DNA of 40,857 nt, taken from positions 1 through 40,857 of the forward strand of contig JAIESQ010000106.1 in assembly GCA_019745975.1 (NCBI GenBank), given 5' to 3'. Below are positions 2,050 to 27,647 of this stretch, piece by piece. Under the pieces are notes generated by a model, which was given only the letters and a program-made list of their open reading frames with translations, was not told the DNA's origin and did no database searches. The position numbers and the translations under genes are program-made. The first letter of the stretch is position 1; each line of letters opens with the position of its first letter. Source of the stretch: Pirellulales bacterium (GTDB taxonomy: Bacteria; Planctomycetota; Planctomycetia; Pirellulales; JAEUIK01).

Positions 2050-3726
2050 ATGGCCACGCTGCAAGTCGTCAAAGGATTGAACCCCGGCCAGGTCTTCGCC
2101 ATCGAAGGCCAGCGCGCCGTGCTCGGCCGGCATCCCGACTGCGACATCGTGCTCGACGTGGGGGCGGTCAGCCGCCAGCATGCGCAAATCTCGCTCGACG
2201 CGGGGGACTACTTCGTCGAAGACTTGCACAGCCGCAACGGCACCATGGTCAACGGCAAGCTGATCGAAGGGCGCTACAAGCTCCAGGAAAACGACCGGCT
2301 GAAGATCTGCGACCTGCTGTTCACCTTTCATCAGTTCGAGCCCAACGACGGCGGCGACAGCCAGCGCGATCCCGAAGGCGCCACCCGCTGGTTCGACGAC
2401 GAAACGTCGTCGAGCAGTTCGACCGTCATGTCGACGATGGATGTCTCGAAACTCGACCACACGCTGCGGCTCAATGTGCGCCCCGAGGTCAAGCTGCGGG
2501 CCCTGCTCGAGATCACCGATAGCTTGGGGCAAACGCTTGAGCTCGACACCGTGCTCCCCAAGATCCTCGACAGCTTGTTTAAGATTTTCGCGCAAGCCGA
2601 CCGCGGGCTGGTCGTGCTGCGCGATGAACGCCGCAACTTGCTGATCCCCAAGGCGGTCAAGCATCGCCGCGCAGGGGAGGACGAGGAGCTCCGCCTCAGC
2701 CGCACGATCATCAACCAGGCCATGAACAGTCGCGAGGCCATTCTCTCGGCCGACGCCACGAGCGACTCGCAGTTTCAGATGAGCCAAAGCGTGGCCGACT
2801 TCCGCATCCGCTCGGTGATGTGCGCGCCCTTGTTGGACACCGACGGGCGGGCGCTGGGCGTCATCCAGCTCGACACATCCAACCAGCGCAGCGCCTTTCA
2901 GCGCGAGGATCTCGACGTGCTGGCGAGCATCGCCCGGCAAGCCGCCGTGGCGATCGAAAACGCCCAGATGCACGAGAACCAGATCCGCCAGCAGCGCATC
3001 CAGCGCGACCTCGAACTGGCGCATCAGGTGCAGCGCGGCTTTTTGCCGGCCGAACCACCAAAAGTCGCAGGCTATGACTTCTTCGACTACTACCAGGCAG
3101 CACACATGCTCGGAGGCGACTATTACGACTATGTCGAGCTCCCCGGCGGACGCCTGGCCATTGTCGTGGCCGACGTGGCAGGCAAGGGCATTCCGGCCGC
3201 CATGCTGGCGGCGCGGCTTTCGGCCGACGTGCGCTACTGCCTGGCCCTGGAACGCGAAGCCGCGGCAGCCGTCAACCGCATCAATGCCTCGTTCGCGCAC
3301 AGTCCCTGGCAGGACCGCTTCATCACCTTTGTGCTGGCAGTGCTCGACACGACCGACCAATCGCTGACGATTGTCAACGCGGGGCATCCGCTCCCCTTGC
3401 TGCGCCGCCAGGACCGCACGGTCGTGGCAATCGGCGATGCCGAAACCGGCCTCCCGCTGGGGATCGACGAGGACTCGCGCTACGAAGCGGTCCACCTCCG
3501 GCTCGAGCCGGGCGAGGCGATCGCCATGTTCACCGACGGCTTCACCGAAGCCATGAATGCTCAAGGCGAACTTTTGGGCGTCGAGAAACTGCACGAGTTT
3601 CTGGCCGCTCCCGTCGATGGCGTCGCCGCGCTCGGCCGCAACCTGCTCGAGAATGTCAGGAGCTTCGTCGGGCAACACCCTCAAAGCGACGACATGTGCC
3701 TGGCCTGTTTAGGCCGGGTCCGCTAG
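2050..3726 (+). CDS. FHA-GAF-SpoIIE (PP2C) phosphatase
   Basis: A 558-residue soluble signalling protein. Residues 1-95 form an FHA phosphothreonine-binding domain (LGRHPDCD, SRQHAQ, SRNGTMVNG). Residues about 155-310 form a GAF sensor domain. Residues about 330-558 form an RsbU/SpoIIE-type PP2C phosphatase (FLPAEPP, GGDYYDY, VADVAGKGIPAAM, MFTDGFTEAMN), with the metal-binding aspartates in GGDYYD and VADVAG present. It probably dephosphorylates a Ser/Thr-phosphorylated partner, with the FHA domain docking it to kinase substrates. No anti-sigma antagonist or RsbW-like kinase lies nearby, so classical partner switching is not supported by the neighbourhood. The sigma factor gene starts 99 bases downstream. 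Confidence 0.93.
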   Translation: MATLQVVKGLNPGQVFAIEGQRAVLGRHPDCDIVLDVGAVSRQHAQISLDAGDYFVEDLHSRNGTMVNGKLIEGRYKLQENDRLKICDLLFTFHQFEPNDGGDSQRDPEGATRWFDDETSSSSSTVMSTMDVSKLDHTLRLNVRPEVKLRALLEITDSLGQTLELDTVLPKILDSLFKIFAQADRGLVVLRDERRNLLIPKAVKHRRAGEDEELRLSRTIINQAMNSREAILSADATSDSQFQMSQSVADFRIRSVMCAPLLDTDGRALGVIQLDTSNQRSAFQREDLDVLASIARQAAVAIENAQMHENQIRQQRIQRDLELAHQVQRGFLPAEPPKVAGYDFFDYYQAAHMLGGDYYDYVELPGGRLAIVVADVAGKGIPAAMLAARLSADVRYCLALEREAAAAVNRINASFAHSPWQDRFITFVLAVLDTTDQSLTIVNAGHPLPLLRRQDRTVVAIGDAETGLPLGIDEDSRYEAVHLRLEPGEAIAMFTDGFTEAMNAQGELLGVEKLHEFLAAPVDGVAALGRNLLENVRSFVGQHPQSDDMCLACLGRVR

Positions 3727-5126: not shown

Positions 5127-8100
5127 TTATCGTGCCGCCGCTCGCGGATCGAACTGGTCCCGCAGTTGCTCGAGTTCGGCGGTCCCGCGGATCGAATCGA
5201 AGGCCGCGTCGCGATCGAGCTCAGTCCAGAACGCCGCGCGCGTTGGCCCATCGGCTTGCTCGAACGCGCGGCGCAGCAGCTTGATGCACTCGGCCAGCCA
5301 GGCGGCGCTCTGAGCGGTCGCATCGCTGGCCGCCGGATCGCGCTCGACGAGCGGCCGCGCGGCGGCATAAACCGATGCCGCGTTGTACAAGAGCCCGGTC
5401 ACCGGCGGACCAATCTCAACGGCCTGGGCTACATCGGCGATGGCCTCCCGATATTGCCCCAACACCAGCCGCGCCGTTGCCCGCCCGGTCAACGGATCGC
5501 CGTGCGGCGAACCCTCCGCGATCGCCCGGTCGAACGCCTTGATCGCCCGTTCGGCCGCTAGCGTCTGACTCAGCAGATAGCTCCAGCCGCGCCGCGTCTC
5601 GAGCAAGGCAAAGCGCTCGCGATCGGCGCGGGTCAGTCCGCCGGAGCGCGACTTCATCAGTTCGGAAGCGACCTCGGCATCGGTCATGCCCCCCTCGTAA
5701 TCTTTCATCAACAGGCGCGCCAAACCGCGCTCGCGCAAAAAGGCCGCCAACCTTACGACGGCGTCGGGCTCGTCACTGGCCACGGCGGTCGCCGACAGGT
5801 TCTGCGCGAGACGCGCCACCACTTCGGCCGCCGACAAGGGAGCCGCTCCCGGTCGCGGCTGCGCGCCCCCTCGCAGGAAACGATCGAACGCCACCAGCGC
5901 TTCGGCCGGTCGCGCCATGTCGACCAGCAGCAACGCCTGCAAGTACCAGGCCTCGGCAAAATCGCCACGCTCGGTGAGCGCCGCCCGATAGCTGGTCAGC
6001 GCCGCGTCGTATTGCTTCTGCATGTGCTGCACGCGGCCCAGTTCGGCAAGCACCTGCGCCCGCTGCCGAGTTCCCGGGCGCGCCAGCGCCAATGCGCGCT
6101 GAAAGTCGGTGCTGGCCGCGCGGAGATCGCCTTGTTCCCGCCGCAAGCGACCCCGGGCCACGAGCGGCTGCGGATCGCGCGGCGCCAGTGTCGTGGCCTG
6201 ATCCAAGAGATCGAGCGCTCGCTTGTTCGACGAGGCCAACAGGTCAAGCGCCACGACCGAACCAGGGACCGCCGCCGGCGCCAACACGCCGAACTGCCGG
6301 GCGACGCGACGCCACGCCTCGGCCTGGTTGACTAGCGCCTCGACGCGCGTGCGATCGAACGGTCGTGCCGCCTCGAAATCGTCGATTGCCTCGCCGAACT
6401 TGTTGGCCGAAAGCCGCGTGATCCCGCGGTTCAGATGCAACGCATACAAGTCTTGACGCGGGGCGGCAGGTCCGAGCAACTCGATCGCGCGGGCGTAGTC
6501 GGCTTCCGCCTTTTTCAGTTCGCCAATCTCGCCGCGCGCCAGACCGCGGAGCAAGTAGCACCAGGCGAAGTCCGGGCGTCGCGAAATGCAGGCCGTTAGA
6601 TTCGCCAAGGCGTCGCGCGGCTGCCCAAGCTGCAGTTGCGTGGCGGCCAGAAAATACTGCGCCCAGAACCGCTCGGGCTTTAGGCGCAGCGCTTCCGCGA
6701 AACTCTCCGCCGCGGCCGCATAGTCTTCGGCTGCCAGCCGCTCGTCGCCCAACAGGAAAAAGTCAAGCGCTTCGGAGGGTTGAATCGCTTCGGCCAGCCG
6801 GCGCGCCTCGGCCGCCTGCTGGGGTTCGCCGGCCAGTTCAAAGTACTTGCTTCGACGCGCATAGAGGGCCTGCAGCGGCGGATCGGCCGCTACCTTCGAC
6901 AACGACGCGAGCGCCTGCTGGGCGCGCGCCTGATCCGACTCCGCGGTTGGATCGATGGACGCCAGCTCAGCGGCGATGAGTCGCAGCTCGCGCGCGTTCG
7001 TAGCAACTTCGGCACGTTCGTCAGGCATGAGCAATTCGAGGAGCGCGGCTGCGCCGGGGCTCGACATCGAAAGTGCCAGATCGCCGGCCAAGCCGCGTTC
7101 GACAGCCGCTTTGGCCAGTGCAAAATCGTCGCTCGAGGACAGTTCGTCGGTATTAGCTTCGTCACGGTTCTGTGCTCGGTCCCGTGCCGCCAGCATGGCG
7201 CGAAACTGCGCTTCGTCGACAGCCTGGCGAAGCTCCACGCGGACCCGCGCAGCGTCGGCCAAGGCGCGAACATGCTGGCGTTGCTTGGCGACCTGCTCCC
7301 GGTCGCGATCGACCTCGACAAGCTGTATCTTCAGCCGCGGCTCGCGCGCCAAGATCAAGTTTGCCTGGTCGAATCGGGCCACGGCCGTATCCAGATCCTC
7401 GCGCGCTTGCGCGTCGTGCGCTTCACGAACCAGTTGTGCGGCCTGCGTTGCGATGCCCTCGATGCGACGCCGCTCCTGCCATGTCCAGGCTCCGATCAGG
7501 ATCGCGAACACCGCCGCGCCAACCGCGGCCGTTAGCACCACCGTACGGTGGCGCTTGATCCAGCGCAGGGAGCGATCGTACCAAGGCTCGCGATACGCCA
7601 GCACGGGTTCGCCCGCCTGAAAGCGGACAACTTCGTCGGCCAGTTCCAGGGCCGATTGATAGCGATCATCGGCCTGGCGCGCCATCGCCTTGAGACATAC
7701 GGCAGCCAATGCGCGCGGCACCTGCGGCGCGACGCTCCTTGGATTCGGCACCTGGCCCCGCTGCACGCGACGCAGCACCTCGCGCCGTTCGCCCCGGAAG
7801 GGCGCCGAACCGGTCAACATGTCGAACAGAATCGCTCCCAGCGCGTAGATATCGCTCCGCGCATCGAGCGGCTGCGCCAGCGCCTGCTCGGGCGACATGT
7901 AGGGGATGGTCCCCACGATCGTGCCGGCCCTGGTGTGGGCGGCATCGACGTTGGGGTTCGCATCGTCGCTCAGCAGTCCATTGCCGTTGGCCGACACTTC
8001 ACCCACTTCGGCGTGCAGCGTGGTATCGGTCGGGCTGACGAAGTGCTTGGCCAAACCCCAGTCGACGACGATCGCCTCGCCAAATTCGCCGACGATGATG

Positions 8101-8945
8101 TTCTGCGGTTTCAGATCGCGGTGGAGCACGCCACGGCGGTGCGCGAAGGCCATCGTCCGGCAAATGCTCACGAACACCGTCAACAGCTCGCTGAAGTGCT
8201 GCGGTCGTGTCGGGTTGCCGTGATCGAGACGATGGAATTCGCGAATCGCCTGCGAGAGCGTGCGTCCGCCGATCCGCTTCATGGCATAAAACGGATTGCC
8301 TTCGGCATCGAGCCCGGTGGCATACACCGGCACGACCCCGGGGTGCTCGAGCTGGCCCGTGACGCGGGCCTCTTCGATGAAGCGGCGAATTTTGTCGGCG
8401 GCATGCAGCGACTGCGGCAGCAAATCCTTGACCGCGACTTCGCGGCCGAGTTGTTCGTCAAAAGCCAACCGCACCCGGCCCAAGCCACCGCGCCCCAGTT
8501 CGCTCATCAGCACATAGCGCTGCCGTGCTTCCACATCCGAAGTGGCCGTTTTGGCGATCGCCGGCGCATCGTCGTTAGGGACAGTGGGCCAGTCACTGGC
8601 GGCACGTGCACCGGCCGGCTGCGGTGTGAACTCCTGCGTGTCGGCCGTGGGATCGGAGTGCACTGTCGAGCTGCGGGCCATCCCGCGCGTGGTTCTCGCG
8701 CCGAGCTCCGAGACCGGCAACGACGGCGCTTGCGAGCCACCGCTGCGCCGGCTTTCCAGGCGGCTCGATTCGACCAGTGCCGCGATTTGCTCCTGACTCA
8801 ACAAGCCCAGGCTTTCCAACAGCAGCGACAGCGAGGCACTGTCGTCCTTACCCAACTCGCGCAACAGATCGCTGATTTGCGCCACCGAGACCAGCTCGTT
8901 GGCATACGCGCGGGCCAGTATGCGAAGTTCGTCAGCGGCTGGCAT
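5127..8945 (-). CDS. Ser/Thr protein kinase with TM and TPR array
   Basis: A 1272-residue Hanks-type kinase. A helical N-terminus of about 65 residues precedes a low-complexity linker. The kinase domain lies at about 142-440: GRGGLG loop, catalytic lysine in VAVKD (about 173), HRDLKPQN (275-282), and SPEQ. The metal-binding motif reads DWG instead of DFG (295-297). One membrane span follows at about 469-489, then roughly 780 residues of TPR-like repeats (ALNLNRG-type, ALxLxP, AEALxxxP patterns), which would be outside the cytoplasm if the kinase is inside. The ATG at 8945 is chosen because GGAGG sits nine bases upstream; an upstream GTG at 8975 has no such site. The start lies inside the end of the giant surface-protein gene, which implies translational coupling. 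Confidence 0.93.
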   Translation of the reverse strand: MPAADELRILARAYANELVSVAQISDLLRELGKDDSASLSLLLESLGLLSQEQIAALVESSRLESRRSGGSQAPSLPVSELGARTTRGMARSSTVHSDPTADTQEFTPQPAGARAASDWPTVPNDDAPAIAKTATSDVEARQRYVLMSELGRGGLGRVRLAFDEQLGREVAVKDLLPQSLHAADKIRRFIEEARVTGQLEHPGVVPVYATGLDAEGNPFYAMKRIGGRTLSQAIREFHRLDHGNPTRPQHFSELLTVFVSICRTMAFAHRRGVLHRDLKPQNIIVGEFGEAIVVDWGLAKHFVSPTDTTLHAEVGEVSANGNGLLSDDANPNVDAAHTRAGTIVGTIPYMSPEQALAQPLDARSDIYALGAILFDMLTGSAPFRGERREVLRRVQRGQVPNPRSVAPQVPRALAAVCLKAMARQADDRYQSALELADEVVRFQAGEPVLAYREPWYDRSLRWIKRHRTVVLTAAVGAAVFAILIGAWTWQERRRIEGIATQAAQLVREAHDAQAREDLDTAVARFDQANLILAREPRLKIQLVEVDRDREQVAKQRQHVRALADAARVRVELRQAVDEAQFRAMLAARDRAQNRDEANTDELSSSDDFALAKAAVERGLAGDLALSMSSPGAAALLELLMPDERAEVATNARELRLIAAELASIDPTAESDQARAQQALASLSKVAADPPLQALYARRSKYFELAGEPQQAAEARRLAEAIQPSEALDFFLLGDERLAAEDYAAAAESFAEALRLKPERFWAQYFLAATQLQLGQPRDALANLTACISRRPDFAWCYLLRGLARGEIGELKKAEADYARAIELLGPAAPRQDLYALHLNRGITRLSANKFGEAIDDFEAARPFDRTRVEALVNQAEAWRRVARQFGVLAPAAVPGSVVALDLLASSNKRALDLLDQATTLAPRDPQPLVARGRLRREQGDLRAASTDFQRALALARPGTRQRAQVLAELGRVQHMQKQYDAALTSYRAALTERGDFAEAWYLQALLLVDMARPAEALVAFDRFLRGGAQPRPGAAPLSAAEVVARLAQNLSATAVASDEPDAVVRLAAFLRERGLARLLMKDYEGGMTDAEVASELMKSRSGGLTRADRERFALLETRRGWSYLLSQTLAAERAIKAFDRAIAEGSPHGDPLTGRATARLVLGQYREAIADVAQAVEIGPPVTGLLYNAASVYAAARPLVERDPAASDATAQSAAWLAECIKLLRRAFEQADGPTRAAFWTELDRDAAFDSIRGTAELEQLRDQFDPRAAAR

Positions 8946-11900
8946 CGCTGGAGCCCTCCACGGCAGTTGGCGCACCTACCCCCAGAATCGCTACGTCGTG
9001 CGCGGCAACGGAGCTTGCGGAATCGTTGGTCGGAGAAACAGCAACAGCAGTGCGCGCCGGACGCTGGATTGCGATGTTCGTTCGCGGTGTCGGCGTGCGG
9101 CGCCGCGCTTCGTCACTCGAGTTTCGCTTCGCGTTGCCCGCTCGTCGCAAGCCCGATCGCTCGTCGGCGGCGCCTTCCACGACGGGCTTGGCAACCGTCG
9201 TCAGATTTCCGCGAAATTGCCGCTTGATCGCCTCGATGGCGTACTCGATCCGCCGGCGTCCGACCAGGTCGTCATCGGCAATATTCCCCGCCTCAAGCAT
9301 CAAGCGATCGACTTCGGGAAGCAGCCAGACGAACTGCGACTCGCGCGCAAGCTGCCCGCGAAGGTCGAGCAGCTCGCGGAACAGTTCGGTCAGCTCGCGC
9401 GGCTCTTTTCCGCGTCGTCCGACATGGCCGGCCAACTGCAGGATCGAGCCTAATAGTCCGCTGGCGCCAAAACCTCCGTTCGTCGAGAGCAGCGCCCGGA
9501 TCGCGGGACTCAGGCCGGAGCCGACCAGGCTTTGCGACGAATCGGCGCCGATACGTAGTGCGAAGGCCGCGGCGGCCAAGGCGCCACTTGGATCGATTCC
9601 ACCAGGCGCGGTGGGCGTGCCAAGTCGAAAATCGATCTGCGCTCGCAGTCCGGTACCCAACCCTAGTTGTCCCTGCACCGATGCGAACAAGCTATTGGTG
9701 CCATCGTTGAAATTCAGCGCGCCGCGATAGGCAGTGCCAGTGCCAGAAAAATCAAGGCCGTAAAGACCCGACGGCGCGCCCGACCACACGAGCAAGCCGG
9801 TTGCGCCGTTCGTCGAGATCGAGCCACCGGCAGCGGTGTCGATCGGCTGGCCCCCTTGCGAGCCGAGCGCACCTTGGCCAATTAACAGTGTGTAGTCCAC
9901 CGGGTCGATCCAACCCCACAACAGTGATCGCGTCAACGCACCCAGCGGGCCGAAGATCCCCTCGACGATCCTTTGCACGTGCTGGTTGATTAACTCGATG
10001 TTCGGGTCGATACCTGTGACGGCAGGCGCCAAGTTGAACTGCTGCGTCTGGAAGGGTCGCAGATCGGTACCGCGCGGCACGTCAGCAAATGTATCGCTGC
10101 GGGCGATCTGCCCTTTGCTCACCAGCAAATAGCCGGCCTGGTTGCGGTCGACGAAGCCTTCGAGTTCCAGGTCCAGCAGGAAGTTTGGCACCGCCGGCTG
10201 GTTGTCGTCGCGCAGCACCAAATTGTTGCCAAGCAAATCTGAGCGCGGATCGACCGGCAGAATGGCCAGCATCAGCGGGCCGTCGACCGTATCGATCTGC
10301 AACAGCGTGGCACCGGGTATTTCTTGAACGAGCAGGCCGTTCACGCTTTGCCCCAGGCGCTTGGCCGCCCCTGTGCCACTCCCATTCGACGGCTCGCCGA
10401 GCAGGAACCGCGCGTCGCGCGCCCAGAGCACGACAAACTCTCCCTGGTTGGCGAGATTATCGGCCTCGATACCTGCGAATTGGCCTTCGACCAGCGCGGC
10501 CAGGAGCGCATTAATCGCCGCCGCTACTTCTGCCGAAGTGCCGGCCAAATTGCCGGCCAGCAACAGCTCTTGCAGCAAGCGCCTGGCAAAATCGCGATTG
10601 GCAACCGCCTTGCGCGAGTTCAACGCGTCGAGGGTCACCTGGTCGACAAATTCCTCGAGCGACACGAATCGCTCGTTGAGCAGGTTCTGGAATGTCGTCA
10701 GCTCGCCGAATGTCACCGGCAGCACGATTTCGCCTGCCACCTCGCCTTCGCCCCCCGACAACGGGAAGCCGGCCAGGTTGTTGATGCCCACCCCCAGGTT
10801 CGTACGAACGGTGAGTTGGTAACTTCCCGGCGCCACGGGAGCAGCCAGCCGCAGCATGGCGCTGTTGGTGAGTGGATCGTAAAACGCACCCGTCAGGCCA
10901 ATCGGTCCCGCCGGAGCATCCAAGCGCTCGAGCGCGTAGTTGGCCAGCGTTTGCACCTGCGACGCCACGAGGTCAGGACCACTAAACCGTAGCACGACAA
11001 GATCGATCACCGGGATTCCTGCCGCGGTGTTGACAGTCGAACTGGCGAATTCAGCGCTTTCAACACGCGAGCTCGCCTGCGAAGCCCATTGGAACGACGG
11101 CACGCGGTAGTCGCCGCCGACAAGGGGGTTGCCAGCCCGATCGATCAGCCGCGCCCCGTCGACGATTAGTTGATAGTCGTCATCGGGCTGTCCCGCGAGG
11201 TTAGCCGTAACGACGACCTTGGCGCGGCCGCCCGTCTGCGCCGACGTCCGATAGATTCGCGAGACGATCGCGTCGGCCTGATCGGTTGCCGGATCGACGT
11301 CGTACAGGTTGCCATCGCCACCCGCTCGCAACAATCGGTAGGTCAACAAGCCGGTAGCAGCAGCCGGATCGAGGTCCTCGTCGAACTCGATCTCAAAGAC
11401 CACCATGCCGGTCGGGTCTCCGGCGCCGTCCTTGACCACGTTGACCGTCGCCGATTCTACCTGCGGGCCCAAGCGATCCACCACGAACGCAAACGCTTTC
11501 TCGACGGCGTTACCGGCCGCGTCGGCGAGTCGCAGGTTTGCCGAGTATGCTCCGGCTGGCAGCGGGCGATTGATGTCGAGCGAAACGGTCTGCGCTTGAT
11601 TGGATTGATTCAGCGTGAACACACCGACGCCGTCGTCGAATCGCCCGTCGTCGTCAAGGTCGATCGCCAACGTGACGGGCGCGTCGGATGCGGCGCCGGG
11701 GAATGCGTCCTTAATCGCCACCAACAATTCCGGCTGGACTGCAGCGGTGTAGTTTGCCGACCCAGGCGCATCGTGCAGTTTCACGCTGACGATCGTCGGC
11801 GCCGCGCGATCGACAGCAAACGAGCCCGTGAAATCATCCCCCGGTGTGCTGTCGTAATTGCCGTCGAGCAGCTCGATTGCCGCGCCCTGTCCTGGCGCGA

Positions 11901-14900
11901 AGATCGCGTTGGTGCCGGTATGGACGGTCAGCGTGTAGATGCCGTCGGGCAATGAATCGAGCGTCAACTCGACGGTGCGGTGATCAGCCGACACCGCGAC
12001 ACCGATGATGTTGCCGCTGGAAATCGTGTAATTGGCCGTTTGGTCGATATTTTGTAGGTCGTCACGGCTGAAGCTCACAAGCACCTTAGGTCCCGCAGTG
12101 GCTGCCCGCACGTCGGTGACAATCGGCAGATCGGTGTCGATCACCAGCGTTGCCGGCACCGACTGGTTGCCGCGCGCGTCAACCAACCGCACGGCCACTT
12201 GCCGTTGTCCCCCGGCGAAGGGGAGCGCGGCAATGGACGGCACGCTGAACGGCGTCGCGCCATCGGCTTCCAGCGGTACAGTCTTGAACCCATCGTCGAA
12301 CTCGCCGTCCCCATCGACATCGAGCTCAACCCGTGCCAGTTCGCCAGCGGTCGCCGGCACGGCGTCGTCCAATTGACCGACAATGCGATAGAACAGCCCC
12401 GCCTCGGTCGACGACGCCCCCGCAACTCCCAGCGTGCCGCCCAGCAACACCGGCGGCAGCGTGTCAATGGCGAATGTCGCCTCGAAGGCGAAGCCAGCCG
12501 GGGCCGGAGCATCGCTGCGCAGCTTGCCCCCCCGCTGGCTCAGAATCGTGTCGTCCACGCGCAGGCGGTATCGGCCGTCGGCGAGGTGATTTGCCACCGG
12601 CACGAGAATGCGATGCAGGGCGGGCAAGTACTGGGGGTCACCCAGCACGTCGTCGAGTGCCATGAGGGCATGCGTGACAGGGTCTTCGGCCAGCAGCTCG
12701 AACGCCTGCTTGACGACCGTCTCCTCGTCGACATCGGCGTCGTTAAGAAAGAGCGTCAGAATTGTGGGAGAACCTGCCACGGTGTCGGCCGGCGCCATGT
12801 GGTCGACAACCGGCGGCGCGTCGAGCTCGATCACCAGTTGATAAGGACCACGGGTTCCCTGCGCCCCACCGACACCAACGGCATAAGTCCCCGGCACAAG
12901 CTCTAACTCAATGACAGGATCGCGGCCGATCGAGTCGTCGTTCGTAGCGACGAGCATGGGACTCACGCCGTCAAGTTTCAAGAGGGCCAGCACGGCGTCG
13001 AGCGAGCTGGGCGGCCCACCGAATTGCGGTAGGCGTTCGGCGATTACCTCGATTCGAATGGTTGCGTCGCGATCGAGCGTGAATCGTCTGAAATCCCAAT
13101 CACCCGGGAGCCCCTCTGTCCCTTCTTCGGTGATCAACAAATCGACCAGCTCCCCGGAGCCACCGTTGCCGCCGGGCCCCGCGCTGATGAGTCCGTCAAC
13201 CTCGACCCGACCCCTGGCCAGATCGACTTCGGGCGCTTCGGCTGGAACGTTGTCGTCGAGGTCGTCGTCATCGATGATCGTCCCGCGCCGCACCGGCCCG
13301 GGAGTGTCGTGCCGCAGATCGTACAAGCCGACGTAGAACGTCTCGTTGTCCTCTTCGACATTGTCGCCGAACGCCGTGACCTCGAAGGTGTGCTCCAGGT
13401 CTCCAGGATTGAACGTCAAGAATCCGGCGCCAGCGGTGTAGTCGACCCCTGGCGTGGCGCTGCCCGCCGGCACACCCAACAAGGGATTCTCGCCGACTTG
13501 ATAAATGACCGTAAGGAGGTCGTCGCTGGGTTGCGAGAGCCGGACGCGATACACGAAAGTGACTTCGCCGGCGTCTCCTTCGATGGCTTCGACACTGTCC
13601 ATCAGCAACAGCGGTGGGTCGTCGTTGAGGATTGTGCCCGTGCCAATCGATTGCCCCAGTTGCGCCGGCCCGGTGACCCCTGTCAGCTCGACGCGGAAGG
13701 TCTCACTTAACTCCGCAGCCGTGTCGCCGAGCACTCGAGCCCCAATGTTCTGTGACTGTGGACCAGCGGCGGCCGCGAAGGTGATTGAGCCTTCTTCCGC
13801 AACGAAATCCTCATTTGGAGAAGCCGCTCGATCCCCCAGGCCGGCAATCACGCGATAAAACACGGTCACCGGCACATCGATCGCTCGCGACAGGTTTACC
13901 TGAAACGCGTACGGCGTCTCGCCCGAATCTCCTTCGTTCCCCAGCACGGAGTCGTCGATGTTGACTACCGGTCGCGCGTCGTCGTTCAGGATGGTTCCGG
14001 TGGCCAGGGCGCGATCGACCGTGGCCGGACCCTCCACGTCGGTTATTTCGACGTGAAAGGTCTCGTTCCCTTCGAAGAACGGATCGCCTTTGACGTGGGC
14101 AACGATGTTCTTGAAGCGCGTCTCGTCGGCAGGCGAAATCGTGATCGAGCCGGTTTCGGCGACGAAGTCAACGTCGGCCGTCGCACTGTCGCCGTCGGCC
14201 GCGAAGACCCGATAAAAAACCGTGATCGGCGCCGTGGGCAACTGCGACAGTTCCACCTGGAAGCTCAGTGGCGTGTTGCCGTCATTTCCCTCATGGCCTT
14301 CGGCGTCGTGTAACGAAACGACGTTGTCACTGCTCGCCGGCACCACGTTAACCGACGTACTGCCGAACTCGACAAACCGCGGCAGCAAGCTCTCTTGGAG
14401 TTGCGACAAGTGCACGCCATGTCCGACCCCGCCGGCCGCATTGGCCGTGAAGCCCAGCAACCCGTCGGAAACGGCGACAAACGGTACCCGCACCAACAAG
14501 CGCTCGTTGTCCTCCGACTCGGCTTCCGTGGCCGCGCCGAGCTCGTCCAACAAGCCCGCGCTGGCGGTCGACAGCGAGCGCTCGAGCGGAAAGTCGTTCG
14601 AGAAGACTGCCGCGCCCGAAACACTTGCCAGGGTGGCGCCGTAGACGACGTCGGCATACGCTGCCAGCACGCTGCCAACGATCTCACCCCGCAGGTCGTC
14701 GACCCATATCTCCAGATAGAAGCTCTGGCCTACCTCAACGTCAGGCAACACGTTGCCTAGTTGGTCGGTAACTTTCAGATGGATTGCGGCGAACTTGTCC
14801 TGCGTCAGTTCGTCGTCGCGATTGACCAAAGGGGGGCGCACGTCGGCCAAGCCCGCGTATGCTGGATCAGCGCTCACCACGTGCAGGTTGACGAAATACG

Positions 14901-16824
14901 AGATGTCGCCGTCAAATTCTTCGTCGTCGACCCCCGTCACGATCACGGTTTGCAAGCCGTCCCAACTCTCGTCCGTGAAGACCAGCGAATTGCCGCCAGT
15001 CAGGTTCGTTGCTGTCCCTTCGCTACTGTCCGACGTGCCAATCTGCACCGTCACCGGAGCTGTCGGGGGCGCGGACAGCCGCACGCCAAACGTTGCCGTC
15101 TTGCCCAATTCGTCCGTATAGAAGTTCGCGCTCGTTTCGACCACCAGGCCCGCCTGCCGCGGTTGCACTATTACCGCGAATGGGTCCGAGACATCGTCGA
15201 CATCGAAGTACGTGGCCCCCGCGCGGTTTCCCACTACTTCGCTCAGCGCGCCCGCGATCGCGTTGGTCGACGTCACCGCATACAACGGCTCCGTGCGGCC
15301 GCTGAAGTCACCCTGCAGGTTCAATCGCAATGTGTGATCGAGCGTCGCGGTTCCGCTAACTGCCAGGCCGACGGCCAGAGCATGGTAGCCCGGTGTGATG
15401 TCGAGCTGCAGCGTGCCGAGGGAGCTCTGCGTGAAGTTCCCCAACACCAAGAGGGTCGGATCTAGCGAACCAGTCGACGCCGCAAGCTGCAAAAGCCCGT
15501 CGTTCGTGACATCGCCGACAATCGTCCCCCGGCCTGTCACGCGGCCATCGGGCAGAATCTGAACTCCCGCCGTTTCGACAACCGGTCCCGGAAGGTAAAG
15601 CGCGTCGTGGTTGAGGGCATCGACCACGCTGGTTTCGAGAAACCTGATCGTCGCTGGTTCTGTCGCGGTGCGCGCCGTGAACTCCGTCACCAGCTTGCCC
15701 CCGAACCGCGCGGTCAGCGAGCCGGGCTCTTGGGCTTGCATGGTGAAGTTGCCGAACAGCGGCGCCGTCCCCGTGATGCTGAAGTTCAGGAAGGTTTCCT
15801 CGGGGTCAACCACGAAATCGAATTGATTGTCGAGCGTGGTGAAATCGAGCTGCTGTCCCGGAACTCCCACGTCCGCGTAGGCGACCAATTGCCCGGTCGC
15901 ATTGAAGCTAATGCGGGTCGTCAGATCTGGAAAGAACGGGTAGAAGTTCCCGGAGAAATTCACGGGGACCGCGAGCCGCAGCTTGCCGGTGCCAGCGTCG
16001 TAGCTGAGCGTGGCATCACCCAGCACCGATTGCGGAGCGAATCCAGTCGGCAGCGCTTCGGACAACCGCTGGCCCAACACCAGGGCATCGATGTGGGCAC
16101 CCGGCAGGTAGCCGGCTTCGATGCCCGTTGTTGCAAAGCCGCCCGACTGCTGGTTGATCGGCACGGCGCCGCTGCGCCAAGCGACATGAACATCGCGCGC
16201 CGCGATGTAGGCGAGTCCGGCAATCTGTGCCGCCAAGATAGCCGGGGCTTTGAGCGCGGCCAGGTTGTCGGCGGCCGTGACGCCAACGAGAATTCGACCG
16301 GACTCCGCCGTGACGCTTGCTTCGTCGTCAGTCCCCAGATCAAGCTGCTGGCCGACCATGATGATCGCCCCGTCCGCCGCCGCCAGCGCGGCGCCACCAC
16401 TCAGCACCACGTCGGTCGTGACTTCGAACTGCGTCGCATCGCCGCTGACGATCAGAGATGCGGCATCCAGTTTGGCCAGGCCTGCTGTGAACAGCCCCGA
16501 GCCCGCTAGCGTCACGCCGGCCCCTGCCTCCACGCGCAACTGGGCGATCTTCTGTCCATCGGCAACCGTCACCTGGTAGTGGCCTTCGCTGAACAGCGCG
16601 GTGTCGGCCAGGCCGGGCACTTGCTGGAGCGTGCCCCCCACTTCCTGCCAGTTGTTGGCGTCGCCAAAATTGCCGTCGCCGCCGATCCACATCAGGATCG
16701 TCAGCAGGTCGCGGCGCTCGAGACGTTCCAGCGTGAAGAAGTGCTTGGGTGGGCGCACGACGCGACGACGGCGAGAGCCGTTACTCCCACGGCGTCGCTC
16801 CATGCTGCGCGCAGACCGCTGCAT
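8932..16824 (-). CDS. Giant LEPR-XLL surface protein with Calx-beta domains
   Basis: A 2630-residue predicted exported surface or matrix protein. The arginine-rich N-terminus carries LERLERRDLLT, the LEPR-XLL signal typical of planctomycete secreted giants. Residues about 45-560 are beta-helix or autotransporter-like (WIGGDGNFGDANNW). A Calx-beta-like unit follows at about 566-650 (ESWDGLQTVIVTGVDD), then three clear Calx-beta domains at about 826-950, 950-1070 and 1070-1190, each with an early DxxxxEG motif, the first two ending GTILNDD. About 1208-1338 resembles a PPC-type beta domain. From 1340 come Ig-like units with DVDGDGEFDDG and DLDDDGRFDDG calcium loops. The last 90 residues are basic and Ser/Thr-rich; no dockerin or PEP-CTERM is seen. 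The ATG at 16824 has AGGA eight bases upstream; GTG at 16860 is less likely. Role is probably adhesion or envelope structure. Confidence 0.88.
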   Translation of the reverse strand: MQRSARSMERRRGSNGSRRRRVVRPPKHFFTLERLERRDLLTILMWIGGDGNFGDANNWQEVGGTLQQVPGLADTALFSEGHYQVTVADGQKIAQLRVEAGAGVTLAGSGLFTAGLAKLDAASLIVSGDATQFEVTTDVVLSGGAALAAADGAIIMVGQQLDLGTDDEASVTAESGRILVGVTAADNLAALKAPAILAAQIAGLAYIAARDVHVAWRSGAVPINQQSGGFATTGIEAGYLPGAHIDALVLGQRLSEALPTGFAPQSVLGDATLSYDAGTGKLRLAVPVNFSGNFYPFFPDLTTRISFNATGQLVAYADVGVPGQQLDFTTLDNQFDFVVDPEETFLNFSITGTAPLFGNFTMQAQEPGSLTARFGGKLVTEFTARTATEPATIRFLETSVVDALNHDALYLPGPVVETAGVQILPDGRVTGRGTIVGDVTNDGLLQLAASTGSLDPTLLVLGNFTQSSLGTLQLDITPGYHALAVGLAVSGTATLDHTLRLNLQGDFSGRTEPLYAVTSTNAIAGALSEVVGNRAGATYFDVDDVSDPFAVIVQPRQAGLVVETSANFYTDELGKTATFGVRLSAPPTAPVTVQIGTSDSSEGTATNLTGGNSLVFTDESWDGLQTVIVTGVDDEEFDGDISYFVNLHVVSADPAYAGLADVRPPLVNRDDELTQDKFAAIHLKVTDQLGNVLPDVEVGQSFYLEIWVDDLRGEIVGSVLAAYADVVYGATLASVSGAAVFSNDFPLERSLSTASAGLLDELGAATEAESEDNERLLVRVPFVAVSDGLLGFTANAAGGVGHGVHLSQLQESLLPRFVEFGSTSVNVVPASSDNVVSLHDAEGHEGNDGNTPLSFQVELSQLPTAPITVFYRVFAADGDSATADVDFVAETGSITISPADETRFKNIVAHVKGDPFFEGNETFHVEITDVEGPATVDRALATGTILNDDARPVVNIDDSVLGNEGDSGETPYAFQVNLSRAIDVPVTVFYRVIAGLGDRAASPNEDFVAEEGSITFAAAAGPQSQNIGARVLGDTAAELSETFRVELTGVTGPAQLGQSIGTGTILNDDPPLLLMDSVEAIEGDAGEVTFVYRVRLSQPSDDLLTVIYQVGENPLLGVPAGSATPGVDYTAGAGFLTFNPGDLEHTFEVTAFGDNVEEDNETFYVGLYDLRHDTPGPVRRGTIIDDDDLDDNVPAEAPEVDLARGRVEVDGLISAGPGGNGGSGELVDLLITEEGTEGLPGDWDFRRFTLDRDATIRIEVIAERLPQFGGPPSSLDAVLALLKLDGVSPMLVATNDDSIGRDPVIELELVPGTYAVGVGGAQGTRGPYQLVIELDAPPVVDHMAPADTVAGSPTILTLFLNDADVDEETVVKQAFELLAEDPVTHALMALDDVLGDPQYLPALHRILVPVANHLADGRYRLRVDDTILSQRGGKLRSDAPAPAGFAFEATFAIDTLPPVLLGGTLGVAGASSTEAGLFYRIVGQLDDAVPATAGELARVELDVDGDGEFDDGFKTVPLEADGATPFSVPSIAALPFAGGQRQVAVRLVDARGNQSVPATLVIDTDLPIVTDVRAATAGPKVLVSFSRDDLQNIDQTANYTISSGNIIGVAVSADHRTVELTLDSLPDGIYTLTVHTGTNAIFAPGQGAAIELLDGNYDSTPGDDFTGSFAVDRAAPTIVSVKLHDAPGSANYTAAVQPELLVAIKDAFPGAASDAPVTLAIDLDDDGRFDDGVGVFTLNQSNQAQTVSLDINRPLPAGAYSANLRLADAAGNAVEKAFAFVVDRLGPQVESATVNVVKDGAGDPTGMVVFEIEFDEDLDPAAATGLLTYRLLRAGGDGNLYDVDPATDQADAIVSRIYRTSAQTGGRAKVVVTANLAGQPDDDYQLIVDGARLIDRAGNPLVGGDYRVPSFQWASQASSRVESAEFASSTVNTAAGIPVIDLVVLRFSGPDLVASQVQTLANYALERLDAPAGPIGLTGAFYDPLTNSAMLRLAAPVAPGSYQLTVRTNLGVGINNLAGFPLSGGEGEVAGEIVLPVTFGELTTFQNLLNERFVSLEEFVDQVTLDALNSRKAVANRDFARRLLQELLLAGNLAGTSAEVAAAINALLAALVEGQFAGIEADNLANQGEFVVLWARDARFLLGEPSNGSGTGAAKRLGQSVNGLLVQEIPGATLLQIDTVDGPLMLAILPVDPRSDLLGNNLVLRDDNQPAVPNFLLDLELEGFVDRNQAGYLLVSKGQIARSDTFADVPRGTDLRPFQTQQFNLAPAVTGIDPNIELINQHVQRIVEGIFGPLGALTRSLLWGWIDPVDYTLLIGQGALGSQGGQPIDTAAGGSISTNGATGLLVWSGAPSGLYGLDFSGTGTAYRGALNFNDGTNSLFASVQGQLGLGTGLRAQIDFRLGTPTAPGGIDPSGALAAAAFALRIGADSSQSLVGSGLSPAIRALLSTNGGFGASGLLGSILQLAGHVGRRGKEPRELTELFRELLDLRGQLARESQFVWLLPEVDRLMLEAGNIADDDLVGRRRIEYAIEAIKRQFRGNLTTVAKPVVEGAADERSGLRRAGNAKRNSSDEARRRTPTPRTNIAIQRPARTAVAVSPTNDSASSVAAHDVAILGVGAPTAVEGSSDASR

Positions 16825-16860
16825 GCCAAAATTCCTGCCCTCGCGCGGCGTGCCAGCCAC

Positions 16861-25245: not shown

Positions 25246-27012
25246 TCACCCCCCGCGCCGTCGCTGCCGGTAGTACTTCAGCCCCGGCACAAAGAAGCAC
25301 GCGCCGGCCACCACGCCGAAGATCGTGTGCGCCACGCTTGGCAGCCAGGCCATCAAGAACGCGGTGGCGAACAGGGCCGCCGCCTGCACATAAAACGCCC
25401 CGCTCAAAATGCCCGCCTTGATGAAAAAGTCGATCCCGCCCACCAGCGCCAACACCGGCGCCAGCGCCAACACGGGCAAGCCCAACGCCACTTCCACACC
25501 GAATAGCAGCGTGCTGCACAACACGCTCGACGCCCAGACGTGCGCGATTTGCCGCTCGACGAACGTGACGGGCCCGGATCGCCGCCGCAGCGCCCAGAAG
25601 ATCGCCGCCCAGGTGCCCAATCCCACAGTCCAAAGCAACAGGTAGGGCCACGGTGACCGGACACCACGCCATTGAATCCAGTTGGTCGCCAGGCAGATCA
25701 CCAGCAGCACCACGCTGTGCCACATCCAGAGCAGACCCCAGTTCTCCAGCACCGTGGCGTGATGCGTCTCGCGAAACAGCCGCCCGACGACTTGCAAAAA
25801 CCCCCCTGCTCGCGCCGCGACCGGTTCGCCTGCGAGATAGGCTTCGAGATCGTCGGCCAGCGCCGCGGCGCTGGCGTACCGCAAGTCGATCGGCTTCTGC
25901 AAACAGCGGAGTACGACCAGTTCGAGATCGCGATCGACCTTGGCGTTCAACAGCCGCGGTGGCAGCGGGTCTTGTTCGAGCACCATCAGCACCGTGTCGA
26001 CGGCCGACGCGGCCTGAAACGGCGGCCGGCCCGTCACTGCCTGATACAGAATCGTCCCCAGGCCGTAGATGTCGCTCGCCGGGCCAATCTGACCGCGATT
26101 GCCCGCCGCCTGCTCCGGCGCCATGTAACTCGGAGTGCCGACGATCATGCCAGTGCCGGTCAGCGTGTCGTCGGTCATCAGCCGCTTCGCCAGGCCGAAA
26201 TCGGTGACGTGCGGGCGGCCATCCTGATCAAGCAAAATGTTCGACGGCTTGAGGTCGCGGTGCAGCACGCCACGCTGATGCGCGTAGTGAATCGCCCGGC
26301 AGATCGGGGCCAGGAGCTGCGCCGCCTCGCGCGAGCTGAGCGGCCCCGCGGCCAGCCGATCAGCCAAAGTTGTCCCGGCCACATACTTCATGCTGAAGTA
26401 GGGCTGCCCCTGGCACTCGCCAACTTCGTACACCGGCACTATGTGCGGATGGTCGAGCCGCGCGGCGCTTGTGGGCTCGGCCTGGAAGCGGGCCAAGTCG
26501 TCGGCCGAGGCGATTTCGTGCCTCAGCAGCATCTTAATCGCCACGTCGCGCCCCAAGCTACGCTGGCGAGCCAGATAGACGACGCCCATCCCGCCGCGTC
26601 CGAGTTCTTGGAGAAGTTGATAGTCGCCGAATTCCCGCGGCAGCGTGGACGTTGAGGACGCCGATCCGGCCGCGAATTTGGCACGTACCTCCGTGCGTGC
26701 AGATTCTTCCGAGGGGTGTGGCAGCTCGATCGTAGGAGAACTACTCGAGTCCGACGCATTACTTGCCGCCCGAGGCGCGCCCGGCACTTCGTCGGCCATC
26801 ACGATCTCGCCGCGCGCCAGCCGCGCCGCCTGGCTGCCGAGCCCTTCGGCCAACAGCAGAGCCGGCCACAGTTCGCGCAGTTCGCTGCTTAGTTGAGGAT
26901 GCGCGGCGATCAGCTCGTCGATGTTGGGAAACTGGCCTGCCCGCAGCTTGCCAACGAGCTGATCGATCAGCGTGGCCAGCAGTGCGTCGGCAGCATCGGT
27001 CCCGCCGGTCAT
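25246..27012 (-). CDS. Ser/Thr protein kinase with polytopic C-terminus
   Basis: A 588-residue Hanks-type kinase. The N-terminal 125 residues form a helical region and a Ser-rich linker. The kinase domain at about 130-400 has GRGGMG, Lys160 in VAIK, HRDLKPSN (251-258), DFG (271-273) and MAPEQ, so it looks catalytically complete. The C-terminal 160 residues are about six hydrophobic segments. Its ATG overlaps the ECF sigma gene stop as ATGA, a coupling found repeatedly in planctomycetes (ECF-STK pairs), where the kinase is thought to control sigma activity. The membrane part may sense an envelope signal. Confidence 0.95.
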   Translation of the reverse strand: MTGGTDAADALLATLIDQLVGKLRAGQFPNIDELIAAHPQLSSELRELWPALLLAEGLGSQAARLARGEIVMADEVPGAPRAASNASDSSSSPTIELPHPSEESARTEVRAKFAAGSASSTSTLPREFGDYQLLQELGRGGMGVVYLARQRSLGRDVAIKMLLRHEIASADDLARFQAEPTSAARLDHPHIVPVYEVGECQGQPYFSMKYVAGTTLADRLAAGPLSSREAAQLLAPICRAIHYAHQRGVLHRDLKPSNILLDQDGRPHVTDFGLAKRLMTDDTLTGTGMIVGTPSYMAPEQAAGNRGQIGPASDIYGLGTILYQAVTGRPPFQAASAVDTVLMVLEQDPLPPRLLNAKVDRDLELVVLRCLQKPIDLRYASAAALADDLEAYLAGEPVAARAGGFLQVVGRLFRETHHATVLENWGLLWMWHSVVLLVICLATNWIQWRGVRSPWPYLLLWTVGLGTWAAIFWALRRRSGPVTFVERQIAHVWASSVLCSTLLFGVEVALGLPVLALAPVLALVGGIDFFIKAGILSGAFYVQAAALFATAFLMAWLPSVAHTIFGVVAGACFFVPGLKYYRQRRRGG

Positions 27013-27647
27013 TCGCCGGCCTCTTCTGGCACCGCTTGGCCGATCGACGCCCGCAGCCGCTTGATTGCGCGCAAATGCCGCATGCTGGCGGCCGCCTCCG
27101 ATAGACCGAGCGCCGTGGCGACTTCTTGATTGCTCAACTGCTCGAAGTGCCGCATCAAGAGCACTTCGCGATCGGTCTCGTCCAACTGCGCCAAGGCCTC
27201 CTGAAACCGTCGGGCGGCTTCCGCCTGTAGCGCCGCGGCGGCTGGCGTCAGCTCACGATCGGCCAGCCAGGCTCCTGGCTGCAGCGCGGCGGTACTCGAA
27301 TCGTCGCCACCGGCCAGCGGCTGCTCGCGGTCGAGACTGCGCCGCGCCGCTTCGCGATGCCGCCGATGCGCGTCGATCAAGCGATCGCGCGCCATCGAAC
27401 GCAGCCACAGCGCAAACGGCATCGCTGGCCGCGCCAGGTAGTCCGTCAACCGGCGATTGGCCTCGATCAGCACTTCCTGCACGACGTCGCTCGAATCGAC
27501 CCGCCGCGCCAGCGCCGGATCCATCCGCAATTGCACCATGCGGCGCAGTGCCTCGCGATGGCCGGCCAACAAACGCTCGACCGCGGCGGCGTCGCCATCG
27601 CGAGCCCGCGCGAGCAGTTCGGCGGTTTGGGCGGAGTCGGGCCACAT
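27009..27647 (-). CDS. ECF sigma factor coupled to kinase
   Basis: A 212-residue extracytoplasmic-function sigma factor. Region 2 lies at about residues 29-100 (DSSDVVQEVLIEANRRL, PFALWLRSMARDRLID). Region 4 lies at about 155-205 (DETDREVLLMRHFEQLSNQE, ALGLSEAAASMRHLRAIKRL), the DNA-binding helix for the -35 box. Its stop overlaps the kinase start. No anti-sigma factor gene is near, which fits the kinase-regulated type. A methionine start at 27647 follows a 59-base gap from the Dabb gene. Confidence 0.94.
   Translation of the reverse strand: MWPDSAQTAELLARARDGDAAAVERLLAGHREALRRMVQLRMDPALARRVDSSDVVQEVLIEANRRLTDYLARPAMPFALWLRSMARDRLIDAHRRHREAARRSLDREQPLAGGDDSSTAALQPGAWLADRELTPAAAALQAEAARRFQEALAQLDETDREVLLMRHFEQLSNQEVATALGLSEAAASMRHLRAIKRLRASIGQAVPEEAGE

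Follow-up and report, generated by a model that had tools for sequence, protein, structure and literature searches.

Recurrent gene pairs of giant surface proteins and transmembrane TPR kinases in Planctomycetia

Introduction

Planctomycetes are rich in transmembrane TPR kinases and in giant surface genes, and the results presented here connect the two. In a stretch of 40,857 nucleotides from a Pirellulales bacterium (contig JAIESQ010000106.1, called the window below), the gene of a giant exported protein overlaps that of a transmembrane Ser/Thr kinase with a TPR ectodomain. The best reading of the computational analysis is that the two represent a recurrent pair, since kinases of this architecture are repeatedly found next to genes of surface proteins that share one C-terminal module. 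The association itself is observed, and from it we infer contact and signalling between the partners. The pair thus provides a putative receptor together with the domain that may be its ligand, such that two purified domains would suffice to address what these kinases sense.

Results and Discussion

The giant gene is located at 8932..16860 on the minus strand and comprises 2642 codons (7.9 kb), with an uncertain start that could be GTG 16860 or a later in-frame start codon. The N-terminus of the protein is basic and bears the stretch LERLERRDLLT (16699..16731, minus strand; read by eye from the translation), which we take to resemble the planctomycete LEPR-XLL N-terminal motif. Although this motif is visible by eye, no match to the LEPR-XLL family was obtained in NCBIfam at E≤0.001. 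The protein further contains Calx-beta repeats (PF03160, E 8e-19), the best-scoring stretch being residues 1133-1185 (13306..13464, minus strand), while its long C-terminal part has no convincing family match in Pfam or NCBIfam. Near the C-terminus lies a module of ca 190 residues (residues about 2240-2433; 9562..10143, minus strand), recognised by the profiles A3 and A4 described below and common to kinase-linked surface proteins elsewhere. We call it the DPVD-F/Y module; in the window its core reads WIDPVDY.

The kinase gene, located at 5127..8945 on the minus strand, encodes 1272 residues. Its Hanks-type kinase domain (residues 144-398, 7752..8516, minus strand; PF00069, E 7.6e-31) contains K173, E192, H275-R276-D277, N282 and D295-W-G, which are invariant across the three aligned homologues and to which we assign the customary catalytic roles. 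By hydropathy, a single strong membrane span is found at residues about 468-486 (7488..7544, minus strand), between the kinase domain and a TPR array of approximate limits 690-1230 (5256..6878, minus strand); a second, weaker peak occurs within the TPR region, at residues about 885-903. The ectodomain as a whole comprises residues about 490-1272. Because the strong span separates the two parts, the TPRs should face the periplasm, with the kinase domain in the cytoplasm. This predicted topology is in line with the one predicted for the class in PMC11032199, and it lends support to the proposal, made in an initial sequence-only reading of the window, that the array faces the other side of the membrane.

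We now consider the junction between the two genes. As that reading had stated, and as the coordinates confirm, the kinase start codon falls within the last 14 bases of the surface gene. The ATG is at 8945-8943 and the stop codon TGA of the surface gene at 8934-8932 (both minus strand), which gives an overlap of 14 nt (8932..8945). A Shine-Dalgarno-like GGAGG is located at 8955..8959 (read 8959-8955), within the surface gene and separated by a 9-nt spacer from the ATG, such that the minus strand reads ...GGAGG-GCTCCAGCG-ATGCCAGCCGCTGA... at this point. Both the start and the putative ribosome-binding signal of the second gene are accordingly inside the first, which is the arrangement expected of a translationally coupled pair. 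The kinase reading frame is open already from GTG 8975. The ATG at 8945 is nevertheless favoured, because the homologues in two related genomes (G006 and G032) begin at the position aligned to it, and because the codon-usage gene caller, which was not given the answer, selects it.

It should be stressed that the 14-nt overlap alone is ordinary for this genome. The background consisted of 40 pieces of 20 kb from this genome (800 kb in total), with 589 called genes and 380 same-strand neighbour pairs. Overlaps occur in 51 of the 380 pairs, 14 of which share 5-40 nt. Ahead of the start, GGAGG is present in 24 pairs and a 4-base core (GGAG, GAGG or AGGA) in 128. These numbers rule out that the overlap or the GGAGG is special in itself. 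The pattern GGAGG-N9-ATG is found 92 times in the genome, compared to 52 times for the reversed pattern. A scan of 8500-9500 for promoters and terminators gave nothing above shuffled sequences; the scan has low power, and the sigma-70 consensus says little for this phylum. An antisense open reading frame of 559 codons (7548-9227, plus strand) also spans the junction. Its matches in the G006 region are only frames antisense to the kinase, and it is a shadow frame of GC-rich DNA.

Some other genes of the window deserve mention. A gene of FHA-GAF-SpoIIE type, resembling phosphatases with all family scores below cut-off, is located at 2050-3726 (plus strand), 1.4 kb from the 3' end of the kinase gene, and its product is a possible counter-enzyme to the kinase. 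Within the compared 26 kb of G006, nothing matches this gene. At some distance, a second Ser/Thr kinase gene lacking TPRs (25246-27012, minus strand) overlaps by 4 nt with the gene of a planctomycete ECF sigma factor (27009-27647, minus strand; TIGR02984 above cut-off). Sigma/kinase gene pairs are common in this phylum.

Conservation in relatives

Conservation of the gene order in related planctomycetes, which the sequence-only reading had named as a check, holds in part. In G006, a genome of another genus in the same family, the same two genes adjoin with an overlap of 17 nt. The kinase start is at the same position, again with both start and putative ribosome-binding signal inside the first gene; an SD-like GGGAG, read by eye, has the same 9-nt spacing. 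Identity amounts to 48% between the two kinases and, over the C-terminal 878 residues, to 37% between the surface proteins, whose similarity extends back over about 1495 aligned positions. The 26 kb of G006 compared have no other gene in common with the window. Wider synteny as the cause of the conservation was thus rejected, the extra matches being only antisense shadow frames of the kinase and paralogous kinase similarity.

What did not hold is a wider conservation within the family: the pair is present in one of the six other family genomes that were compared, namely G006, and in the remaining five neither gene was found (two candidates scored in each genome; kinase at E≤1e-85, surface C-terminus at E≤1e-3). 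A search through 396 genomes of the order located the surface C-terminus in the present genome (G000), G006, G016 and G032, with one weak further match in G220. Matches to the kinase at E≤1e-100 are confined to G000, G006 and G032. The two homologues in G032 are on separate contigs. The kinase homologue there has a TTG start that overlaps the stop of an unrelated 103-codon gene (L071, 5414-5725 and 5722 onward); the kinase start thus sits on the stop of an upstream gene in this genome too. G016 has a module protein and no close kinase homologue (best E 2e-26).

In another family, f11, the surroundings of the surface homologues differ. After them comes a set of small genes that is shared within f11 and absent from the present pair (beginning QQATISTPF... 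and MSNRERWI... by eye; L072 8222-9930 and L073 6826-8179). In three genomes of family f2, a full-length match to the window kinase has immediately after it a LEPR-XLL-like gene that is truncated by the end of the contig (L170 14357-20000, L075 1-6689, L169 1-5958). These three loci were left out of the pair counts given below.

The DPVD-F/Y module

When public genomes were scanned with the surface C-terminus, three loci were obtained, two of them matching f11 genomes and the third on a Gemmataceae contig (L108). In the latter, a TPR kinase gene stands immediately before that of a 2527-residue surface protein, and the part in common is a stretch of ca 190 residues around LWLDPVDFVL. A profile of this module (A3) was built from five rows picked by surface homology, where the kinase next door was already known for three of the five. 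Searching with A3 gave 36 places in 30 of 327 genomes of the class, distributed over six families. A second profile, built from all 36 members (A4), was matched by 17 genomes out of 95 in one family and by 22 out of 130 in another. The phylum-wide search with a longer profile (A1, 392 genomes) yielded, this genome aside, only short weak matches in 19 genomes (best E 6e-9).

Although the DPVD core is widespread, its proline is the only strictly invariant position of the 36-row alignment. For the module of the window, neither Pfam nor NCBIfam gave a match at E≤1, and any one family of these collections matches at most 2 of the 36 members. The structure model of the region, with helices followed by beta strands, is poor (mean pLDDT 58.8). 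We also considered an internal tandem duplication, with a WARDARFLL unit and a WIDPVDYTL unit; the profile comparison aligns the two in register, but with a probability of 4%, and a duplication is not claimed.

Of the 35 complete module proteins, 12 have the strongest hydrophobic stretch downstream of the module at most 55 residues from their end, with a K/R-rich tail behind it (L219, L222, L223, L224, L225, L228, L229, L231, L232, L233, L238 and L247). This resembles a membrane anchor or sorting tag and would keep the module close to a membrane. Such closeness is not general, because the proteins of G006, of family f21 and of the present genome are without the tail. As a separate observation, the module genes of G921 and G837 (L248-L249 and L252-L253) have a divergent upstream gene whose start looks, by eye, like a RecA-like ATPase.

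Kinases next to module genes

In total, 36 module genes were examined, that is, 35 of the 36 A3 places (G971:C9 was left out) and the one in G032. Neighbours were taken from the codon-usage gene caller and kinase domains were identified by BLAST at E≤1e-8. Ten of the 36 genes have a Ser/Thr kinase as immediate neighbour. It is upstream at five loci (G806, G965, G814, G958 and G897), downstream on the same strand at four (G777, G942, G000 and G006), and convergent at one (G917). For the other 26 no adjacent kinase is visible; at least one neighbour is out of view in 18 of the 36, and among the 18 with both neighbours visible, nine have a kinase beside them.

Within the same regions, kinases make up 10 of 53 adjacent genes compared to 2 of 146 farther ones (Fisher p=3.8e-5). 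If the three discovery loci are excluded, the numbers are 7 of 47 and 2 of 146 (p=8e-4). The 53 adjacent slots come from an automatic count that includes a broken frame in G977; the slot-by-slot table has 52. The kinase background is 6 in 589 genes of the present genome and 1 in 173 genes of control regions, and adjacency is thus above background. The contrast to other giant Calx-beta genes is weak. Of these, one in 20 has a kinase neighbour (20 regions of 40 planned), which differs from the module genes with p=0.04 by gene and p=0.02 by neighbour slot. The latter value becomes 0.07 without the three discovery loci and 0.11 if one locus of a same-genus pair is removed as well.

The association was also evaluated by coordinates. 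Of 61 module rows found with A4, 28 are new and were tested, and 28 are in genes already examined; G971:C9, G806:C22, G964:C272, G964:C280 and G937:C613 were left out. The kinases were 133 rows among the best matches listed, with ca 17 second segments of frames already included being left out. The 28 new places, located in 16 genomes, have a listed kinase within 2 kb in eight cases (0.22 expected) and within 6 kb in nine (0.53 expected). The Poisson value is 1e-10; if the number of kinases is multiplied by five, it becomes 2e-5 for 2 kb and 2e-3 for 6 kb. The value of 1e-10 overstates the evidence because few lineages contribute to the nine new pairs, namely five from the genus g495, three from the genome G1033 and one from G942, where it is the second pair. 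Since, in addition, the G965 and G814 pairs belong to one genus, the independent events are fewer than the counts.

These results bear on two further proposals of the sequence-only reading. That TPR kinases co-occur with the surface protein is borne out beyond what was claimed, through a shared module and its excess of adjacent kinases; the pairing is real and wider than first proposed. Coupled translation as a general feature, on the other hand, finds no support. The other same-strand pairs are separated by gaps of 120-464 nt according to the gene caller (as short as 60 nt if the longest frame is taken), the kinase is sometimes first, and one pair is convergent. In G942, an inverted repeat of ca 24 bp, perfect by eye, is located between the module and kinase genes (L257, about 5427-5546).

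Lineages of the paired kinases

All ten paired kinases have Pkinase and TPR domains by Pfam and a strong hydrophobic span at or just past the end of the kinase domain, and those of G958 and G000 show a weaker additional peak. In a tree built from 50 kinase domains, where a G982 kinase was labelled as module-linked despite being the second neighbour and not an adjacent one, the window kinase groups with those of G006, G032 and G777, the last from another family with the same gene order (support 99/96). The paired kinases of f21 form a second group (100/98), and those of f118 (G806, G965 and G814) a third one in a distant part of the tree (100/99), while the G942 kinase stands apart from the three groups without a resolved placement. 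The paired kinases thus constitute three or four lineages, and it follows that the association arose more than once or that the kinase was replaced.

Interpretation

Given the frequent presence of a kinase beside the same C-terminal module in distant relatives, the kinase may well have the surface protein as its input, which we consider to be a good hypothesis. According to the mechanism that we put forward, the giant protein would be exported carrying a dedicated DPVD-F/Y module near its C-terminus, and the periplasmic TPR array of the neighbouring kinase would recognise this module as the contact surface. The kinase could then read the state of the protein, that is, whether it is exported, anchored, assembled or bound, and pass a signal inward by Ser/Thr phosphorylation. 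That the giant exported protein forms a functional unit of this kind with a receptor kinase of its own is a proposition to which we assign an even chance.

From an evolutionary point of view, TPR kinases of three or four lineages would have come to adjoin module-bearing proteins in Planctomycetia. In the present family, the pair would then have tightened into overlapping genes, a local refinement that may allow co-translation at a fixed ratio. The most general formulation is that the pairs belong to an undescribed surface-signalling system extending across several families of Planctomycetia. In such a system, the C-terminal module would be the input, read by a private adjacent TPR kinase; different kinase lineages would have been recruited several times, and one family would have overlapping, co-translated genes. 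We advance this formulation tentatively, at somewhat less than even chances.

Another explanation to be weighed is shared regulation without contact, that is, that genes for envelope remodelling are kept together for co-expression while the kinase senses something else, for instance a small molecule or the state of the peptidoglycan. Such an explanation would be consistent with the varying order and spacing of the pairs, including the inverted repeat in G942 and pairs on opposite strands, and with the fact that TPR ectodomains are found in many planctomycete kinases, as described in PMC11032199. However, it would be odd for several kinase lineages to stand beside the same module if the module were irrelevant, an operon is impossible for convergent pairs, and the other giant surface genes in the sample are rarely paired (1 of 20). 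We judge shared regulation to be unlikely, but it is the alternative that fares best.

One can also envisage the reverse direction, where the kinase controls the export or anchoring of the giant protein and the TPR array is a periplasmic platform for docking or assembly. TPR arrays commonly bind proteins, overlapping genes would suit a fixed ratio, and the hydrophobic stretch with basic tail in 12 of the 35 complete module proteins can be counted in its favour. Nevertheless, the five annotated genes nearby in the window (acylase-like, histidine kinase, response regulator, sigma factor and phosphatase-like) are not secretion genes, and we find this direction rather improbable. Finally, that the neighbourhood reflects chance, given the many kinases (up to 238 kinase-like places flagged in one genome by a first look) and giant genes, with the overlap as a routine compact junction (51 of 380) and a Calx-beta contrast of only p=0.07 without the discovery loci, is disfavoured by the counts (10 of 53 against 2 of 146, or 7 of 47 without those loci; 8 of 28 new places near a listed kinase against 0.22 expected) and by the retention of the pair in G006 with nothing else shared over 26 kb, and is in our view the least probable of the explanations.

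Comparison with known systems

The pairing of surface module and kinase is undescribed in the titles and abstract openings among the matches listed from the open-access literature, which is weak evidence of absence. Each partner belongs to a known class. Giant genes, longer than 5 kb and largely coding for surface proteins, were found in all 29 planctomycete genomes then available (PMC5177795). The window gene is like these in size, export and repeats. The word 'kinase' does not occur in the main text of that paper, whereas here a subset of such proteins is set apart by one C-terminal module.

Single-pass Ser/Thr kinases of Planctomycetota with C-terminal TPR or WD40 repeats have likewise been described (PMC11032199). 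According to this paper, their kinase domain is cytoplasmic and the repeats are mostly periplasmic by prediction, the function of the TPRs being mostly unknown. The window kinase has the same order of kinase domain, membrane span and TPRs. The main text contains neither 'operon' nor 'neighbor', and its passages on these kinases name no partner for them, whereas in the present study kinases of this kind are linked to a specific surface module.

The PASTA kinases PknB and Stk1 are similar to the window kinase in being transmembrane Hanks-type kinases with an extracytoplasmic sensor. An identity of the window kinase as a PASTA kinase was nevertheless rejected, since no PASTA domain was found and the score for NF033483 is 234 bits, below the cut-off of 450. 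Comparable to the proposed mechanism is the PknG-GlnX-GlnH system, as treated in PMC11032199, where an extracellular protein likewise informs a TPR-containing kinase. PknG, however, is itself a cytoplasmic protein, to which a separate membrane protein relays the signal, whereas the window kinase combines kinase domain, membrane span and TPR array in one chain.
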